Positions 204 to 8,195 of a stretch of 8,340 bases of DNA are shown piece after piece (position 1 is the stretch's first letter; each line of letters opens with the position of its first letter). The stretch covers positions 1-8,340 of the forward strand of contig JACPKR010000055.1 in the NCBI GenBank assembly GCA_016186945.1, given 5' to 3'. The position numbers and the translations under genes were made by a program. Source of the stretch: Deltaproteobacteria bacterium (lineage in GTDB: Bacteria; Bdellovibrionota_B; Oligoflexia; Oligoflexales; Bog-1112). The notes under the pieces were generated by a model. It saw nothing but the letters and a program-made list of their open reading frames with translations. It searched no databases and was not told the DNA's origin.

Positions 204-280
204 TGGTCGGGGCGACAGGATTTGAACCTGCGACCTCACGCCCCCCAGACGTACGCGCTACCAGGCTGCGCTACGCCCCG
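204..280 (-). tRNA. tRNA-Pro (anticodon GGG)
   Basis: On the minus strand a full cloverleaf folds: acceptor stem CGGGGCG/CGCCCCG (7 bp), D arm GCGC-AGCCTGGTA-GCGC, anticodon loop CTGGGGG with anticodon GGG, and T arm GCAGG-TTCAAAT-CCTGT with the invariant TTC. A discriminator A and an encoded CCA complete the 77-nt gene. It reads the CCC (and by wobble CCU) proline codons. The sequence is close to bacterial tRNA-Pro(GGG) genes from memory. Its 3' end faces the recombinase gene, so it is a candidate attachment site for an element extending left of the window. Confidence 0.96.
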
Positions 281-347: not shown

Positions 348-899
348 CTAAAAGAATCGCGCCCAAAACATGCAAATGCCCATCATGACATAAAGGCCCA
401 CACCTCGAATGCCAAGCCACCACCACTTGCTCAGATAAAACGCCGCATAGGCAACCGCACTGGCATGGAGGATGAAGCCGAAAGCCAGGATTCCGGACAA
501 TTTCGTCAGAATGCCGATGAAAATCGGGTTCGAAAGGCTGGTCTTTATCTCTTCGGGGACCGCGTATTGATATTTTTGTGCCATGAGCACTAGCAGGGGT
601 TTGTCGATCATTTGCATGACCAACAATGTGCCCCCCATGAGTAGGCCCAACACAACTGGCTGGATTTTGAAATAAATGGACTTCTGAGTTTTAAAAGACA
701 AAAAGCCGAAGATGCCCACAAGGAGGAGAGTCCCCAAAGTGATACCATCAATCGATCCAAATGTGAAAACGGTGTATGCCGCCTCTATAACCGCAAAGAT
801 AACGGCTGCTATAACTCCCGATTTTATTCCTGCAAAACTGTCGATGACCACAAAAGCTACCAGGGGCATAAAGCCAAACAATAAAGTTGTCGCACTCAT
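348..899 (-). CDS. yciB: YciB/septation protein A-like inner-membrane protein
   Basis: A 183-residue, very hydrophobic protein with about six predicted membrane helices (roughly residues 5-22, 26-48, 54-68, 79-95, 123-147 and 158-180). The length and the middle block FKIQPVVLGLLMGG followed by QMIDKPLL match the pattern of the YciB (IspZ/septation protein A) family, in which a K-I/W-K-P-type stretch precedes a helix and then a short KPL motif. YciB proteins of E. coli are small inner-membrane proteins linked to cell-envelope synthesis and the division machinery; the molecular activity is not settled. The ATG at 899 is supported by a strong Shine-Dalgarno GGAGGAG five bases upstream. The gene stands alone, followed 67 bp later by the tRNA-Pro gene on the same strand. 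The gap between them holds only a weak hairpin (AGCCC/GGTGCT) before the tRNA promoter. The family call rests on remembered pattern, not an alignment. Confidence 0.65.
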   Translation of the reverse strand: MSATTLLFGFMPLVAFVVIDSFAGIKSGVIAAVIFAVIEAAYTVFTFGSIDGITLGTLLLVGIFGFLSFKTQKSIYFKIQPVVLGLLMGGTLLVMQMIDKPLLVLMAQKYQYAVPEEIKTSLSNPIFIGILTKLSGILAFGFILHASAVAYAAFYLSKWWWLGIRGVGLYVMMGICMFWARFF

Positions 900-1068: not shown

Positions 1069-1365
1069 ATGCAGGTTCACATCCCTTTTTCAGTATACAA
1101 GAAAAGAATGCGTCTCCTGTCAAACCATGCCCTATCTCTTGGGATCCTTCTCAAGCCGTTTGGCATAACACCTCCAGGTGACACGGAAGATCCCACGCTC
1201 TGTGTAGGCCACGTCTTAGACTATCTAGCGAGTGAATTCTACGACTTTGAATGTATAGACCCCCTTGATGTCGCCATTGCCGCGATCGACCTGAATTTCG
1301 CCCCTGCCCAGGATTTTCTCAAGATAGGACCACACATACTCGGTTTGGTCCTGAAAGACATTTAA
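1069..1365 (+). CDS. Hypothetical protein, 98 residues
   Basis: I do not recognise a family. The frame has a plausible start (ATG preceded by AGAAAGG six bases upstream), an adjacent sigma-28-like promoter, mixed codon use like its neighbours, and no overlap with another convincing gene, so it is likely real. The product is soluble-looking, with no signal peptide or membrane helix. A basic N-terminus (VYKKRMRLL) is followed by an acidic C-terminal half with the hydrophobic pattern FECIDPLDVAIAAIDLNF. It converges on the GCS2-type ligase gene with only 14 bp between stop codons and no terminator visible, so read-through antisense transcription into that operon is possible. Confidence 0.55.
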   Translation: MQVHIPFSVYKKRMRLLSNHALSLGILLKPFGITPPGDTEDPTLCVGHVLDYLASEFYDFECIDPLDVAIAAIDLNFAPAQDFLKIGPHILGLVLKDI

Positions 1366-1379
1366 GCACGACAAATCCG

Positions 1380-2606
1380 CTAAATCTTAAAGGCTTCGTT
1401 TTTCCATAGACACTCGCAGAGTTGTCTATAGATTAGCGAGATATCCTTGGAAGAGTGGTAGGCTTTCGTGATTCTCTCTGCAAGATTGCCGTTCTCCAGT
1501 ATCCATCTGAAATCCGTGATAAAGTCCTTAATCGGCAGATTTTTTCCTGCGAAGCTTTTGGTTGCCTGACACCACAGTTCTCTAAATGTAATGGCTCTGT
1601 CAATTCCGAAACACTCCAGGTACGCCCGATTGTCTATGACACCTTGTAACCCTCTGTCCAAACCGGTCTGAAGGATATGCCGAAGTTCAAGCGTGTCAAA
1701 ATGTTCCCACTGGGACAAAGGACCCCACTGATCCTTTTCGAGCAGAATAAGCATAGAGATGATAGCAGTTGTGATGGCAAAGTCCATTTTCACGCTTTCC
1801 TGTATATCCATGACTCGAACTTCAATCGCGTTCCGATCGAAGCGTGCGATCGCTCCTCGGGAATTCAACCATTCTTTCTGCAAGATCTTCCCGGGATCGA
1901 AGGGGGCAATATCCGTGTAAAGCCGCTTCAGGATGACATCCTCGTATGTTTTGCGACTCGTCACGGGTTCTGGGATCAGATCCCCCGTAATAGAAGGGAT
2001 TTTTCTCTGGTTTTGAAGGTAGAAGTCGAGTCGATTATCCAGGCGACCCGTCAGTTTACTTTCCACGAAAGGAGAACTTGCGGCTAAGGGTGCGATCAAA
2101 GGCAGAACCAAACGCACAGCAGAGTGAACGCGAGCGAATTCCTGATCGTCGAAAAAAGGAAGATTTATGTGAACACTCTGAAGGTTCGACCACCCGTGCC
2201 CCTTACAGTTAAAGATCCGATCGTAAGCGAGAAAGATTTCGCGGTACCCGTGAGGCCAGAGTTTTACCTCATCCGGGTGCATAAACGGATGCATGGCAGT
2301 GGGCATTAGACAGCAGTCGAAGTGCTCAAGGAGCTTGTTCATTTCTCGTATTTCTTTGACGAAGGCTCTCTGAATGTCCAAGAACGAATCTTGGGGTCCA
2401 TTGGTTTTTAATTCAATCACGTGTAGGGCGAGTTCCTGCGACCATGCTGTCCCGTTCCTCTCAAACTCCTCGGTCAGTTCACCTTCCAGTGAAGTTAGAA
2501 CTTCATCGGCAATAGGAGCAATCGAGTGATCGCCCTTTTTGACAAGCATGTACTCGAGTTCTATACCGTAGGCTGAGAATTTTCTAATTTTTGCTACCTG
2601 GGACAC
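1380..2606 (-). CDS. GCS2-family carboxylate-amine ligase (glutamate-cysteine-ligase-like)
   Basis: A 408-residue protein of the glutamate-cysteine ligase type 2 family, part of the glutamine-synthetase-like fold of ATP-dependent amidoligases. Visible motifs in order: GIELEYML (14-21, metal/ATP-binding acid strand), ALHVIELKTNGP (60-71, second acid strand), SVHINLPF (144-151), SSPFVESKLTGRLDNRLDFY (177-196, substrate/nucleotide loop) and RFDRNAIEVRVMDIQES (255-271, late basic and acidic block). It should activate a carboxylate with ATP and join it to an amino group. It begins at GTG 2606 with GGAGAG upstream (about 8 nt spacing), and its first 23 bases overlap the end of the ATP-grasp gene, so it is translationally coupled and last in a three-gene operon. 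The substrate cannot be read from sequence; context argues against ordinary glutathione synthesis and for an unknown peptide-like product. Confidence 0.85.
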   Translation of the reverse strand: MSQVAKIRKFSAYGIELEYMLVKKGDHSIAPIADEVLTSLEGELTEEFERNGTAWSQELALHVIELKTNGPQDSFLDIQRAFVKEIREMNKLLEHFDCCLMPTAMHPFMHPDEVKLWPHGYREIFLAYDRIFNCKGHGWSNLQSVHINLPFFDDQEFARVHSAVRLVLPLIAPLAASSPFVESKLTGRLDNRLDFYLQNQRKIPSITGDLIPEPVTSRKTYEDVILKRLYTDIAPFDPGKILQKEWLNSRGAIARFDRNAIEVRVMDIQESVKMDFAITTAIISMLILLEKDQWGPLSQWEHFDTLELRHILQTGLDRGLQGVIDNRAYLECFGIDRAITFRELWCQATKSFAGKNLPIKDFITDFRWILENGNLAERITKAYHSSKDISLIYRQLCECLWKNEAFKI

Positions 2607-4068
2607 TGATACTCTCCACTTTCTTTAACATTCTTGACAGAAAAACATGCATGATATCGAGATAGAGTTTTTCCCCAAGTGCCAAGTCTTCAACGCCAGC
2701 GTCAATATTGGGGTTATCGTTGACCTCGATAACATAAAATTTCCCATCAAGTTCCTTGATGTCCACGCCATAAAGTCCATCACCAATCAATTTTGTCACA
2801 TTCAGAGAAGCTTCTATCAAAGATTGGGGGGCCAACTCGACGGGGATAGTTTCAAAATTTCCTGTCGTATATTTATTGCGTGGGCCTCCATGTTTGTAGA
2901 TTTGCCAATGCCCTTTAACCATAAAGTACTTACAAACAAAAATAGCCTCGTTATCCAGAACTCCGACTCGCCAGTCAAAGGCCGTTGGGATAAACTCCTG
3001 GACGATGACAAGTTCTGATCTTTCCAGGCATTCAAGCGTACTTTGGACGAATTCCTCTTTCGAGTTAACTTTGATCACACCTTTAGAAAAGGATCCGTCT
3101 GGTTTTTTTAGGACACTCGGGTATTTGAGATTATCGGCTATTTCATTTACATTTTTTGAATCTACAACTTCCGTTTTTGGCGAATAGAAACCGTTATTCA
3201 CAAGTATTTCGTGAATAAAGACTTTATTTGAACATCGAAGAATCGAGGTTGGATCGTCAATGACAACAAGTCCGAGGGCGTTTGCTTTCTGCGCAAAGCG
3301 AAAGGTGTGATGGTTCACAGCGGTTGTTTCCCGAATGAACAACCCGTCATATTCTCCCAGAGTCGAATAGTCATCACTGCTTATAATTTCCGCGTCTATC
3401 CCCAGCTTATTTGCGGCACTTAGAAATCTGTTCAAAGCTTTGGAGTTCGATGGTGCAAGCTCATCCTCGGGGTTTGTTAAAATCGCAAGGCTGAAACGAT
3501 ACTGCTTTCTAAAAATCGACCGGACAGACTTGCTAAATTGCTTATCAGCAACTTTCTGTATGAATTCCCAATGGCTTTCGGGAATATCAGCAAGGCCCAC
3601 GGGATGCACTTTCCTCAAATACCACTTTCCATTCGAACGTTTGAAAAAGGCTCGAACAAAGGGAGCCTGGAAAAACCTTGAAAGCTCTCTACAGAGGGCG
3701 TCATATTTCTTTGCCATATTCTTTCGAAAATAGAGACTGATCTCGAAAGTGTCAGATTTCAAGTCTTTCAGACTGGTTTGAATTTGTTTTTCCAGACCTT
3801 CAGAAGCGATTTTAACAAACGAAATGCTCTTTAGATCCTGGATTGCCTCAACCGAAGGGCTTGGTTTATGACCACGCGCAGAGGCTAAAAGTGATACATA
3901 GTAACCGATGGAATTGTATGTGTAGCTCCTGCAAAGATTGTAGACGCGCACACCCTTTTTCTTCGCGACATCTCCTCCTCGGATGTAGTCACGAGCAGAC
4001 ATGACGCGAACTTTGTCATTTTGAAGTTTCCAGTCCTTGGATTCCTCGACAATGATGATGTTTTCCAA
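2584..4068 (-). CDS. RimK-like ATP-grasp ligase with RLAN N-terminal domain
   Basis: A 494-residue protein. Residues 1 to about 185 fit the RimK-like ATP-grasp N-terminal (RLAN) domain, with IIIVEESKDW at the start, VMSARDYIRGG (22-32) and VYNLCRSYTYNSIGYYVSLL (42-61). Residues about 190-480 form the ATP-grasp ligase: YPSVLKKPDGSFSKGVIKV (316-334, ATP-binding lysine and glycine-rich loop), VQEFIPTAFDWRVGV (356-370), and GVDIKEL with YVIEVNDNPNID (434-456), holding the Asp, Glu and Asn that bind magnesium. It should form an amide bond through an acyl-phosphate. The start is TTG at 4068, directly after the peptidase stop (4071-4069) with no gap. The conserved N-terminal strand supports this start although the ribosome site is weak (AAGAAAG), implying coupling. 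RLAN/ATP-grasp proteins are known neighbours of GCS2 ligases and papain-like peptidases in predicted peptide-metabolite clusters; the product is unknown. Confidence 0.88.
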   Translation of the reverse strand: MENIIIVEESKDWKLQNDKVRVMSARDYIRGGDVAKKKGVRVYNLCRSYTYNSIGYYVSLLASARGHKPSPSVEAIQDLKSISFVKIASEGLEKQIQTSLKDLKSDTFEISLYFRKNMAKKYDALCRELSRFFQAPFVRAFFKRSNGKWYLRKVHPVGLADIPESHWEFIQKVADKQFSKSVRSIFRKQYRFSLAILTNPEDELAPSNSKALNRFLSAANKLGIDAEIISSDDYSTLGEYDGLFIRETTAVNHHTFRFAQKANALGLVVIDDPTSILRCSNKVFIHEILVNNGFYSPKTEVVDSKNVNEIADNLKYPSVLKKPDGSFSKGVIKVNSKEEFVQSTLECLERSELVIVQEFIPTAFDWRVGVLDNEAIFVCKYFMVKGHWQIYKHGGPRNKYTTGNFETIPVELAPQSLIEASLNVTKLIGDGLYGVDIKELDGKFYVIEVNDNPNIDAGVEDLALGEKLYLDIMHVFLSRMLKKVESISVPGSKN

Positions 4069-4758
4069 TTATTGTTTCTTTCTTATGATAAGTAAGTTTG
4101 CGTCGTATGTGATCACACCCAAAAGAACAGAGTTAATAAGGTGGTCGATAGCTACCATCCCCTTTTGGCCGGATGATACCGGGTTTGGGAAATAGGGGTC
4201 AAGGATTTCCACTTGATGATCCTGAGCGTTAGCTAGGACGACAAAATGACCCGCTGGCTCTCCCCGGACATCGTCTGGTCTGTTGGTTCTCGGATTTTCC
4301 CGGGATGCTTTATAAAGGTAGGTTGAGCTTAGTCCGCAAATGATTGGTCCGGCGGCGAGTTTTTCGCTCAGGAACTCCCTCGTCAGGTCAGCAAATCGAA
4401 TCCGCCCTCCCTTCTTGAGAAATTTTCGATAGGCCTTACAGACGCTTATTGTCTTTCGGTTCTTGGGTGTGGCGATCTGGAGGGTCAGTTTTTTGATCAG
4501 TTTCTTGTCGCTAAAGCCAAACCAAGCGGGGTCGAAAATCTTGATGTTAAAACTATAGATCTCAGCCTCATACCCCCGGCTCAAGGAATGAATACCAAGG
4601 AGAGGGGCCAAGGTTCCCCCTTCCTCCAGCATTTGTACCTCGTCGATCACCGATTCCAGGCTGACCGGATCCTGGTAGAAATTATACACTGCCGCCAAGC
4701 AGGTAGGTCCGCAAGTCTCGTCACTTGGCTGTCTTCGGATGTGCAAGCGTTTCCTCAT
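4069..4758 (-). CDS. C39-like (papain-fold) cysteine peptidase, first gene of the amidoligase operon
   Basis: A 229-residue protein with the C39-type catalytic pattern: Gln10 (oxyanion hole) and Cys16 in QPSDETCGPTC, His171 in GHFVVL, and Asp187 in ILDPYF. About 155 residues separate Cys and His, longer than the compact peptidase domain of ABC transporters. No membrane helix or signal peptide is seen, so it is probably cytosolic. It may cut or trans-peptidate the product of the two ligases encoded downstream; in related clusters a similar domain is often fused to a GNAT acetyltransferase, absent here. ATG 4758 is chosen because AGGGGGA lies four bases upstream and the conserved Gln-Cys block begins ten codons in. 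The frame stays open upstream to 4959, but that part crosses palindromic DNA and encodes a proline-rich, low-quality sequence. Its stop abuts the next start. Confidence 0.78.
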   Translation of the reverse strand: MRKRLHIRRQPSDETCGPTCLAAVYNFYQDPVSLESVIDEVQMLEEGGTLAPLLGIHSLSRGYEAEIYSFNIKIFDPAWFGFSDKKLIKKLTLQIATPKNRKTISVCKAYRKFLKKGGRIRFADLTREFLSEKLAAGPIICGLSSTYLYKASRENPRTNRPDDVRGEPAGHFVVLANAQDHQVEILDPYFPNPVSSGQKGMVAIDHLINSVLLGVITYDANLLIIRKKQ

Positions 4759-4777
4759 ATGTCCCCCTATCTCCATA

Positions 4778-4806
4778 ATTCTATCAGGTTGCACGCTCCT
4801 CGTCCG
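4778..4806 (-). promoter_or_regulatory. Candidate promoter of the amidoligase operon
   Basis: On the minus strand, CGGACG (4806-4801), a 17-bp spacer, then TAGAAT (4783-4778, 5/6 to TATAAT) preceded by TG-A (extended -10). The start site would be near 4771, giving a leader of about 13 nt that holds the AGGGGGA ribosome site of the peptidase gene. The -35 is weak. Confidence 0.4.
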
Positions 4807-4865
4807 GCAAAGTCCTAAATTTCCGTAATGCGTAAGCCACTTGGGGCAAATAGGGAGAGGGGGGT

Positions 4866-4920
4866 TTGGGGGGGAGAGTGAAAAGCCTGCCCTGAGCAAA
4901 GCGAAGGGTCGCTCCCCCAA
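4866..4920. repeat. Compound imperfect palindrome (REP-like)
   Basis: Outer arms TTGGGGGGGAG (4866-4876) and CTCCCCCAA (4912-4920) enclose an inner hairpin CCCT-GA-GC-AAA-GC-GA-AGGG (4890-4908), whose internal GA/GA mismatches could form tandem sheared G-A pairs. The inner core resembles a CCTGAGCGAAGCGAAGG-type unit that recurs in intergenic DNA of many bacteria, from memory. Only one copy is in this window, so its repeat nature in this genome is inferred. Confidence 0.45.
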
Positions 4921-4928
4921 GGGATTTA

Positions 4929-4959
4929 TTGGAGGAACCAGCTGCGCTGGTTCCTCCAA
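4929..4959. repeat. Perfect 14-bp inverted repeat, 3-nt loop
   Basis: TTGGAGGAACCAGC (4929-4942), loop TGC, then GCTGGTTCCTCCAA (4946-4959), with no mismatch. No T-run follows on either strand, so it is not a standard intrinsic terminator. It lies between the small basic ORF and the peptidase operon on the minus strand and may block or stabilise transcripts crossing from one to the other, or be part of a REP-like element. Confidence 0.75.
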
Positions 4960-5051: not shown

Positions 5052-5159
5052 TTATCCGTTGGTCCTAAGAGTACGCCTTTTGCGCATCATGCGTCTTTTT
5101 TTGCGTCCAACTTTTCGTCTGCCTTTTGGGTGTTTTCGTCTGTGCCTTGAACCGTGCAA
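5052..5159 (-). CDS. 35-residue, extremely basic protein (short ORF)
   Basis: A short frame starting at TTG 5159 and ending at TAA 5052-5054. The product has 12 Arg, 6 Lys and 3 His in 35 residues, with basic clusters HRRKHPKGRRK (6-16) and GRKKRRMMRKRR (18-29). A ribosome site AGGGAG lies seven bases before the TTG, and a good promoter (TTGCTT-N16-TATAGT) sits about 37-64 bp upstream on the same strand, so start, ribosome site and promoter all agree. Such composition is typical of tiny ribosome- or nucleic-acid-binding proteins (the bTHX type and AURKAIP1/COX24-like basic peptides are examples of the class), but I do not recognise a specific family. The plus-strand frame over the same bases looks unconstrained. 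The main doubt is the small size and the A/G-rich DNA, which favours Arg/Lys codons in any case. Confidence 0.55.
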   Translation of the reverse strand: MHGSRHRRKHPKGRRKVGRKKRRMMRKRRTLRTNG

Positions 5160-5325: not shown

Positions 5326-5814
5326 GTGGCGGAACAAAAGAATGCGAGTGTAAAACGTAGAACCCTGACGTCGCTCATCATCGAACCTTTCAAGCAGATA
5401 AAGTTTGGCCTCTACATGTTGGGGATTACAATCGCCTTTTTGGTTGTAAGTGCGATTTTATTCGTCAACTCCTTTCTGGAACAGTACAGGCACGTGTTGA
5501 GCATTTTCAATGTCGTTGACCCAAATTTGCGCTGGGATTTTATAACGGACGAAATTTTTTACACGAACCTGGTCAGGCTACTAGTCTGCTTTGTGATTTT
5601 CATGTTCGTCCTCTTCTTCACAATTTTCAGACTTACGCACCGCTATTACGGACCTCTTGTCGCTATTCGAAGGTTTCTAGCTGAACTGAAAAACGGGAAC
5701 TACAGCGCACGGGTGACGGTGAGGAAAAAGGACGAGCTTCAGGATCTTGTCGAGACCTTAAATGAACTTGCTGTGGAGCTTGAAAAAAAACATGGCAAAA
5801 AAGAAGCCCCCTGA
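5326..5814 (+). CDS. Membrane-anchored HAMP-domain protein without output domain
   Basis: A 162-residue protein: short basic cytoplasmic N-terminus, first membrane helix about 27-49, a periplasmic segment of about 30 residues (50-80), second helix about 81-103, then a HAMP domain (about 104-155). The HAMP marks are YYGPLVAIRRFL for the first helix with its proline, ELKNGNYSARV in the connector, and KKDELQDLVETLNELA for the second helix. HAMP domains relay conformational change between membrane sensors and kinases, cyclases or chemoreceptor domains; here the protein stops right after HAMP, so the partner must be another protein or the coil itself. Start GTG 5326 has a strong AGAGGAGGGGG upstream. 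It precedes fapA on the same strand by 131 bp, so a functional link to motility is possible. A weak plus-strand promoter reading exists at 5147-5177 (TTGAAC-N19-TATAGT). Confidence 0.78.
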   Translation: MAEQKNASVKRRTLTSLIIEPFKQIKFGLYMLGITIAFLVVSAILFVNSFLEQYRHVLSIFNVVDPNLRWDFITDEIFYTNLVRLLVCFVIFMFVLFFTIFRLTHRYYGPLVAIRRFLAELKNGNYSARVTVRKKDELQDLVETLNELAVELEKKHGKKEAP

Positions 5815-5945: not shown

Positions 5946-8195
5946 ATGGAAGAGCCAAAACTGTCATATATATCCACTCTCTTTCGGGTGAAGCTCACAT
6001 TGCCTCACAAGGCTTGTCAGGAACTCGAGGAGCCACCAGCTGATATTCTTGCAAGGGCAGAAGCTAGACTTGAAAAGGTCACAAGCGAGAACGCTATCGA
6101 AATATTTGAGATCTATGAAGATGAGTTCCACAATACATGGAACGCCTACCGGGAAATGCAGTCCCCACCCTTCGATCACCTCGTGATGATTATAGGGGAA
6201 GGGTGCCCGCACTTGAGTGGAATAGCAGTAAAGCCGTGTGATACACAGGACGGCATCATCAAACTCACAATCGATGAAGAGCCGTCCTATCTTCGACTGC
6301 TCCGTTTGGAATGGATCGTATGCTATGCCAATCACTATCTCCGGGAAAAAGGGCTGAAGGAAAAAGTCAACACTGCGCAAGTCCACGGAGCATGGTTACG
6401 GGCGATCGGGGGAGAAAGCATCATCGACCTGCCTATCGGAGCGCGTCCTGAAGTAGGAGGATCAAGCAAGCCCTACTCTATCTTCGCCAACCGGCCACGG
6501 AGGGAACTCACCGTAGTCTTGAATGATCTGACCGCTTCTTTGAAAGGTCTGGACCCTACACACTTTATGCGTACCATCTCGGATGCAGCTCAGAAAGTGT
6601 CATACCAGTGGCATATGGAACTCCAGGTGCTTAAATCCGAACTCCTAGCATCCTTGGAAACAGCCATACAGGGGCCTGAAGTTATCGGCGTAAATCTCCC
6701 CCTCGTCTTACTTGCCGCAGTCCCCTCTCTTGAATCTCGAGCAAAACAAATGCCTTCTTACCCTGGTGCTGGTCGGCTGAATATTAAAGTCGCTGACGAC
6801 AAACTTCTTGCGACGGTTGAAGAGTTTGACATGAAAGTTTATGCGGCAAAAGATTTCAAGGCGGATGAGGATTGGTTAAGGAAGGAAGTGAAACGTTACG
6901 GAATTTCCGATGAAGCAAGCATCGAACATTTCGATGGTCTTGCCAACGTATTGCTAACGAGGGGATCTCTGGAGGGCATGGTGGTAGCGGAAGGGATCGA
7001 AGGAATTCCCGGTACGGAACCTTTTTTAGAGGTCGCCTACCGATCCAAGCAAGGAAAAAATGTCCACACCGAGGATGAGATTGTCGACTTGAGAAGTATG
7101 CAGCAGATGGATTTCGTCAAGGGTGGACAATTGATTGCCCAATTAAGTTACAAAAATGAACCTGTCAACGGCAGGGACGTGTTTGGCAATCCCGCCATTC
7201 CCCCGCACGGAGAGGAACTCGTCATCAATGCAAAGGAGGGAGTGATCGAGAAGGAACCTGGGAAGTTTTACGCAGAATTTGACGGCATGCCTGTCATCGA
7301 CGAGAACTCAATTTCTCTTTCCAAAGTCATGATCCACCGCGGGGACGTTAATTTGAAATCAGGTAACATTTCCTTCGATGGACCTGTGGAAATTCTTGGT
7401 TCCATCGACAGCGGCGCCTACGTGGAAACACAGTCCGATCTCAAGGTGAAAGGGACTATTCTGGGAGCCGTCGTTCGCGCCAAGGGCAACATTGAAGTTT
7501 CAGAAGGAATCAACACCGGGAAAGGTGGGGTCGTAACGGCCGGAGGAAAGCTAACGGCGGAATTCATCGAAAACTCGCGGATCCAATGCGGAGGCTCGGT
7601 CATCGCAAAACGAGCCATCATCAACAGTGATGTCATAGCTGGGGAAAATATAGAAGTAACCGACCGAATGACGGGAGTCGTTGCGGGAGGAAATGTTAGC
7701 TGCAGGAAAAATATCCAAACGTCCAACCTCGGTTTTAAAAATGGGGCACTCACAAAATTGAATGTGGGAGTTGACTGGAAATCAGAAATGGCAGTCCGTA
7801 TCAGGAAAAATAGACTCGAAAACATAAATGATACCATGACCAACGATCGCCAGGTTCTGCGAGAACTCGTCTCTCGACCGAAACACCAGAAAACTTCCAA
7901 ATTACTCAAAAGAATCGAATACTACCAGAAGCGCCTGGTGAAAGAACGTGTCCTCATTGAAAAACTTCATAAACTGATCGCGGAATTCCAAGCCAAACTC
8001 ACCTACAACCCGGATTCAAAAATTCTGGTTTCCAAGACCATCTACGCAAACGTCGACATTCAGATAGGCGGAGGACCCGTGGGTATCAAGCATGATATGG
8101 CTGCCGTAGCTATCCTCGCTCGACGCAAACACGGGACCAAAGTTGTGCCGCTTGAGGTTGGACTCGCCCTCCTGGATAAGGAGGATACGGAATGA
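5946..8195 (+). CDS. fapA: FapA/DUF342 flagellar assembly protein A with long N-terminal extension
   Basis: A 749-residue cytosolic protein. Residues about 275-460 fit the N-terminal part of FapA/DUF342 (LNIKVADDKLLATVE, then a G-rich block with EGIEGIPGTEPF and GRDVFGNPAIPPHGEE). Residues about 462-600 are short beta-helix rungs of the form G-x-V/I-x-V-x-G (GDVNLKSGNISFDGPVEILG, SDLKVKGTILGAVVRAKGNI). Residues about 613-690 form a long basic coiled coil, and 694-735 are the closing strand block (VSKTIYANVDIQIG). FapA proteins help build or localise the polar flagellum in Vibrio; DUF342 proteins occur widely beyond that. The first 270 or so residues are extra relative to typical DUF342 proteins, lack a motif I recognise, and seem mixed helix/strand. 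Start ATG 5946 has GGAAAGG just upstream. It follows the HAMP gene and has its own sigma-28-like promoter. Confidence 0.82.
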   Translation: MEEPKLSYISTLFRVKLTLPHKACQELEEPPADILARAEARLEKVTSENAIEIFEIYEDEFHNTWNAYREMQSPPFDHLVMIIGEGCPHLSGIAVKPCDTQDGIIKLTIDEEPSYLRLLRLEWIVCYANHYLREKGLKEKVNTAQVHGAWLRAIGGESIIDLPIGARPEVGGSSKPYSIFANRPRRELTVVLNDLTASLKGLDPTHFMRTISDAAQKVSYQWHMELQVLKSELLASLETAIQGPEVIGVNLPLVLLAAVPSLESRAKQMPSYPGAGRLNIKVADDKLLATVEEFDMKVYAAKDFKADEDWLRKEVKRYGISDEASIEHFDGLANVLLTRGSLEGMVVAEGIEGIPGTEPFLEVAYRSKQGKNVHTEDEIVDLRSMQQMDFVKGGQLIAQLSYKNEPVNGRDVFGNPAIPPHGEELVINAKEGVIEKEPGKFYAEFDGMPVIDENSISLSKVMIHRGDVNLKSGNISFDGPVEILGSIDSGAYVETQSDLKVKGTILGAVVRAKGNIEVSEGINTGKGGVVTAGGKLTAEFIENSRIQCGGSVIAKRAIINSDVIAGENIEVTDRMTGVVAGGNVSCRKNIQTSNLGFKNGALTKLNVGVDWKSEMAVRIRKNRLENINDTMTNDRQVLRELVSRPKHQKTSKLLKRIEYYQKRLVKERVLIEKLHKLIAEFQAKLTYNPDSKILVSKTIYANVDIQIGGGPVGIKHDMAAVAILARRKHGTKVVPLEVGLALLDKEDTE

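Follow-up and report, generated by a model that had tools for sequence, protein, structure and literature searches.

What is made when two ATP-dependent ligases of unrelated folds are encoded back to back with a cysteine peptidase? This question is raised by contig JACPKR010000055.1 of a Deltaproteobacteria bacterium (assembly GCA_016186945.1; 2.66-Mb in 76 contigs), an 8.3-kb stretch that is a complete contig and is called the window here. Its minus strand carries genes for a C39-type peptidase, a ligase with RLAN and RimK-like ATP-grasp domains, and a GCS2-type ligase. We found that this triad is a true conserved operon, the linkage of which far exceeds chance, and we give a probability of about 0.5 to the reading that it specifies a cytosolic pathway for the synthesis and turnover of a small peptide, assembled without the ribosome and joined by glutamate-type linkages.

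The first gene of the operon encodes the C39-type papain-fold cysteine peptidase (229 aa; 4069-4758, minus strand, ATG at 4758; PF03412). It is followed by the genes for the RLAN + RimK-like ATP-grasp carboxylate-amine ligase (494 aa; 2584-4068, minus strand, TTG start; PF14401 and PF08443) and the GCS2-type carboxylate-amine ligase (408 aa; 1380-2606, minus strand, GTG start; PF04107). The C39 stop and the RLAN start abut at 4069/4068, and the GCS2 start overlaps the end of the RLAN gene by 23 bp. An earlier note on this DNA had reported these coordinates, both junctions and the three families; the junctions are real, and the list of open reading frames (ORFs) and the Pfam profile scores bear out the rest. 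The scores were 32 bits for Peptidase_C39 (cut-off 22, E 1.2e-7), 141.1 bits for RLAN (cut-off 25, E 2.8e-41), 42.6 bits for RimK (cut-off 21, E 6.4e-11) and 89.6 bits for GCS2 (cut-off 21, E 3.1e-25). A longer version of the peptidase gene, starting at TTG 4959 (ORF 4069-4959), was rejected because homologues begin near ATG 4758. The C39-RLAN gaps in relatives are mostly -29 to +35 nt and the commonest RLAN-GCS2 spacing is -4 nt, and the tight packing in the window is therefore typical of the family.

We searched one-per-species genomes with a profile of the RLAN ligase, obtained at least 589 relatives and analysed the best 80 loci; since these are the loci most like the window, the census describes its subfamily. 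Profile searches detected a C39 gene in 66/80 loci, a GCS2 gene in 71/80 and all three genes in 61/80. Where there was room on both sides, both partners were present in 53/69 loci. The triad spans at least 15 phyla, and its carriers include cultured Planctomycetota and Bacteroidota (Blastopirellula marina, with strain DSM 3645, Marivirga, with M. sericea DSM 4125, and Pontibacter). We also sampled 46 genomes (completeness at least 85%) from the window's own phylum. Family-level C39 and GCS2 genes occurred in an identical set of 13/46 genomes, all of which also have the RLAN gene; these carriers are related genomes and do not amount to 13 independent events. Two further genomes of this sample had RLAN without C39 or GCS2. 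The presence is patchy even at close range, the set being found in three of the six same-family genomes of the sample, the window's own included. The earlier note had looked to co-occurrence in other genomes as a check, and the three genes do stand together in both related and distant ones. The multi-phylum census and the identical presence pattern together rule out chance adjacency.

The three protein trees covary (Mantel r 0.74, 0.72 and 0.58; the highest values in permutations were near 0.3), and the RLAN tree has at least 32 phylum changes among 19 phyla. Together, these observations point to repeated transfer of the set between lineages.

The catalytic motifs, which had been described as intact, are present in all three proteins and near-invariant across 77-99 relatives; the catalytic roles of the conserved residues are those that we presume from knowledge of each family. 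In the peptidase, the tetrad Q10, C16, H171 and D187 is invariant in the aligned relatives (82 C39 sequences). Classical C39 members are fused to an ABC exporter and have substrates with a double-glycine leader; this 229-aa protein stands alone, and neither an exporter nor a precursor was recurrent in the neighbourhood of its gene. It is predicted to be cytosolic from its sequence, no leader being seen. Its AlphaFold2 model (predicted local distance difference test score, pLDDT, 95) has the C39 domains of PCAT1/ComA as top structural matches (Z 16.7), and it also matches the pseudomurein endoisopeptidase PeiR (Z 15.6) and the glutathione acyl-enzyme of the phytochelatin synthase Alr0975 (Z 15.1, 156 residues, 2.5 Å). 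As these Z scores spread over little more than 1 unit, structure alone cannot pick among the three. The protein had no match to the phytochelatin synthase family PF05023 (C83) at E up to 1.

In the RLAN ligase, residues K282, K321, D436, E448 and N450, which we take to be ATP/Mg ligands by analogy with RimK, are identical in 99/99 relatives. The protein scores 86.5 bits with the model of the RimK alpha-L-glutamate ligase subfamily (TIGR00768, rimK_fam), below its cut-off of 143.4. Residues 190-486 of its structural model (pLDDT 87) match LysX, ArgX and RimK at Z 25-26, and glutathione synthetase (1gsa) is among the structural matches of the ATP-grasp part at Z 20.8; this part fills the match list of the whole model. 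We count the resemblance to the amino-acid-adding LysX, ArgX and RimK as support for the peptide pathway. A Francisella tularensis protein named 'rimK' (FTT0178, 490 aa), the deletion of which caused no attenuation (PMC2675058), is of RLAN-like length and may belong to the family.

Residues E16, E18, E58, E65, H146, R165, E262 and R264 of the GCS2 ligase are conserved among 77 relatives. The protein lies below all the NCBIfam equivalog or subfamily cut-offs for GshA, EgtA and YbdK (best 50.7 vs 371; gshA_cyan_rel 44.9 vs 176.4; gshA_cyano 39 vs 249). These scores bear on the idea that the operon makes a glutathione-like thiol, for which the GCS2 enzyme would form gamma-glutamylcysteine or a similar compound, a third residue would come from the ATP-grasp enzyme and the C39 protein would be a phytochelatin-synthase-like peptidase acting on this thiol. 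GshA (GCS2 type) and GshB indeed represent the same enzyme classes and logic, the C39 protein resembles glutathione-bound phytochelatin synthase in fold, and the match to 1gsa is in line with such a role. However, the GCS2 protein is far under every glutamate-cysteine ligase equivalog cut-off, GshB is less similar to the ATP-grasp part than RimK/LysX are, and PF05023 does not match the C39 protein. Moreover, the genome has another GCS2 gene (locus L102, 1183-2616, on contig C52), whose product is nearest to the EgtA and plant-type glutamate-cysteine ligase models, below their cut-offs, and closer to these enzymes than the ligase of the operon. We consider a thiol product to be quite improbable.

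The surroundings of the operon in the relatives are also informative. A gene for an N-formylglutamate-amidohydrolase-like protein (FGase, PF05013) follows the GCS2 gene in 41/80 loci, and in 37/66 of those with room for it. The FGase-like neighbour scores 29 bits against a cut-off of 278.75 for N-formylglutamate deformylase, which places it far under that model. Of the 89 remaining flanking genes, more belonged to the EgtC-like class II GATases (4 loci) than to any other family, and a PuuD-like C26 hydrolase was present at one locus. The FGase, EgtC-like and PuuD-like families act on N-acyl or gamma-glutamyl amides, and the recurrence of such hydrolases is another point that we count in favour of the peptide pathway.

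A ribosomal precursor peptide was looked for within 700 bp of the operon; the recurring small ORFs were only antisense, internal to FGase or from near-identical strains, and the largest recurrent groups lay antisense to or inside FGase and GCS2. ORF clusters 4-6 of the neighbourhood clustering were set aside as apparent antisense readings of operon genes with a high GC content. ATP-grasp enzymes are known to make graspetides (PMC8939145), and a maturation pathway of that type, with the C39 protein removing a leader and the ATP-grasp enzyme making lactam or lactone links, would agree with the sequence of the C39 protein, for which the closest relatives are double-glycine leader peptidases. This scheme is, however, very improbable: no conserved precursor-like small ORF accompanies the operon in the relatives, and none of the families that recur beside it is a peptide exporter. 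The ATP-grasp part is also RimK/LysX-like and carries an RLAN domain. To our knowledge, no role in graspetides has been described for GCS2 ligases.

The same neighbourhoods were used to weigh protein tagging, in which the ligases would attach glutamate or short peptides to a cellular protein, at its C-terminus or on a side chain, and the C39 peptidase would expose the acceptor or remove the tag. This is suggested by the nearest structures to the RLAN ligase, RimK and LysX/ArgX, which act on the protein S6 and on the carrier LysW, respectively, as well as by the papain fold, which covers tag-removing and isopeptide-cleaving enzymes such as PeiR. Against it, the search of 700 bp around the operon in the relatives gave no small ORF that is conserved, and the sole recurrent protein neighbours are small-molecule amidohydrolases, so that no target gene travels along. 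We also know of no GCS2 ligase acting on proteins. We rate tagging as rather unlikely.

The small-peptide pathway remains the best reading, in agreement with the earlier suggestion that the ligases build a short peptide which the peptidase then processes; both tests that the note had set for itself, the three families and their co-occurrence, came out in its favour. Two ATP-dependent ligases of unrelated folds, a cysteine peptidase and a frequent amidohydrolase fit the stepwise assembly of a glutamate-type peptide followed by trimming or transfer. For the substrates, the order of steps, the product and the direction of the peptidase step, we infer the following scheme. The GCS2 enzyme would activate a side-chain (gamma) carboxylate by phosphorylation and join it with an amine, and the RLAN-RimK ATP-grasp enzyme would add a further amino acid, probably glutamate, via an acyl phosphate. 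The C39 peptidase would attack an amide of the product to give a thio-acyl-enzyme, which would be resolved by hydrolysis or by transfer to another amine; this step is modelled on the action of phytochelatin synthase on glutathione. Where present, the FGase-like amidohydrolase might take off an N-acyl or terminal residue.

Several observations weigh against this scheme. The C39 sequence is closest to the leader peptidases of ABC transporters and not to phytochelatin synthase, and the fold that its predicted model has in common with the latter is no proof of function. About 15/98 RLAN loci are without C39, with at least 13 state changes on the tree, which indicates that the peptidase is not always needed. 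FGase was absent from the window's own genome in a search of that genome, and EgtC-like and C26 neighbours are rare. As RimK and LysX/ArgX work on proteins or carrier proteins, by analogy the acceptor may be a protein and not a small molecule.

Two genomes from the order to which the window belongs have a parallel version of the set. In these, the RLAN ligase gene adjoins a gene for a GNAT-DUF3335 fusion and no GCS2 partner is present in that role. The DUF3335 half of the fusion is C39-like (HHalign probability 97% against the C39 parts), and the literature suggests that the GNAT domain could act as the ligase here. In one of the two genomes (G024), a neighbouring gene encodes a DUF2817 protein, which has a weak match of the aspartoacylase type. 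Both versions thus share RLAN-RimK and a C39-type domain but differ in their second ligase-type domain and in their hydrolase. Both this version and the recurrent FGase lay beyond the view of the earlier note. The swap of GCS2 and GNAT around a constant RLAN + C39 core limits the chemistry to be considered and hints at the two enzymes that determine the product. We tentatively extend the peptide reading to a widespread intracellular glutamate-based peptide that would serve as a metabolite or cofactor and come from a modular pathway with a constant core of RLAN-RimK and a C39-type acyl-enzyme, the latter acting as a bond-forming transpeptidase, and with a swappable second ligase (GCS2/GNAT) and hydrolase (FGase/DUF2817); in this full form, the proposal is doubtful. 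The occurrence of the gene set in at least 15 phyla without a known product suggests an overlooked common metabolite or protein modification, which is open to direct tests because environmental bacteria in culture are among the carriers.

How far is such a system already described? A comparative genomics study of amidoligases (Iyer et al. 2009, Mol Biosyst 5:1636) reportedly predicted pathways of this kind. A passage in PMC4431377 cites Iyer et al. 2009 for operons that join ATP-grasp ligases to COOH-NH2 ligases or GNATs, and one in PMC10318531 cites them for GNAT-DUF3335 fusions. From the former passage, and in line with what the 2009 study reportedly predicted, we defined an amidoligase peptide-synthesis operon as an ATP-grasp ligase, an unrelated second ligase and a peptidase; this combination is what the 61 three-gene loci contain. 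No description or biochemical characterisation of the C39-RLAN-GCS2(-FGase) set was found in the literature searched, the gene lists of Iyer et al. 2009 being outside that search. The set belongs to the predicted kind of amidoligase system, and the term 'undescribed system' used earlier is too strong in view of the 2009 prediction.

Comparison with known systems places the set more precisely. It shares with the RLAN-RimK + GNAT-DUF3335 sets the RLAN-RimK family, a C39-type peptidase and a second ligase-type domain next door, and the G024 set likewise has a zinc-amidohydrolase-like gene; the differences are that GCS2 replaces GNAT, C39 is a separate gene, and the relatives have FGase instead of DUF2817. 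Like GshA/GshB with phytochelatin synthase, it combines GCS2 and ATP-grasp ligases with a papain-fold enzyme structurally like Alr0975, but each of the three proteins scores too low with the models of those families or is not matched by them. The ATP-grasp part (residues 190-486) resembles RimK, which poly-glutamylates S6, and LysX/ArgX of the LysW pathway, whereas the additional RLAN domain of ~150 residues and the linkage to GCS2 and C39, not to ribosomal or lysine genes, set the ligase apart. With the EgtA/EgtC ergothioneine and Puu pathways, it shares the gamma-glutamyl ligase logic and, near some relatives, the EgtC-like and PuuD-like hydrolases; however, no other ergothioneine or polyamine family recurs beside the operon, and its GCS2 protein is not EgtA.

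The RLAN ligase was also found on 11 plasmid records. One of these (Legionella adelaidensis) has GCS2 and FGase genes annotated after RLAN; the plasmid search gave no C39 match at E 1e-5. A 180-kb Pseudomonas aeruginosa plasmid (NZ_CP133752.1) carries a solitary RLAN-RimK gene near a glutamate/aspartate ABC transporter, with no GCS2 or C39 gene annotated beside it.

Upstream of the operon, we noted an unannotated, very basic ORF of 35 codons (5052-5159, minus strand; MHGSRHRRKHPKGRRKVGRKKRRMMRKRRTLRTNG) with a TTG start preceded by GGGAG and no Pfam match. It is present as a single copy in 37/38 genomes of the closest relatives, with 74-94% identity outside its own genome, and in 9/10 more distant members of the class; its start is usually GTG or TTG. 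Codon comparisons gave 19-21 synonymous against 3-7 non-synonymous differences, an excess which indicates a real gene under strong selection, possibly encoding a small ribosomal or RNA-binding protein. As it also occurs in genomes without the operon, it is not part of it. Divergent from this small gene lies a gene for a HAMP-domain membrane protein (5326-5814, plus strand; Pfam), and a second genome of the order has a similar gene next to its copy of the small basic one (L139, 790-1383, minus strand). The remaining features of the window are a FapA (DUF342) beta-solenoid protein of 749 aa (5946-8195, plus strand; Pfam FapA 166.9 bits), a tRNA-Pro(GGG) gene (204-280, minus strand), a Septation-protein-A/VC0807-like membrane protein found by Pfam search (348-899, minus strand), and a 98-aa ORF convergent with GCS2 (1069-1365, plus strand), which has no Pfam or NCBIfam match and may be spurious.

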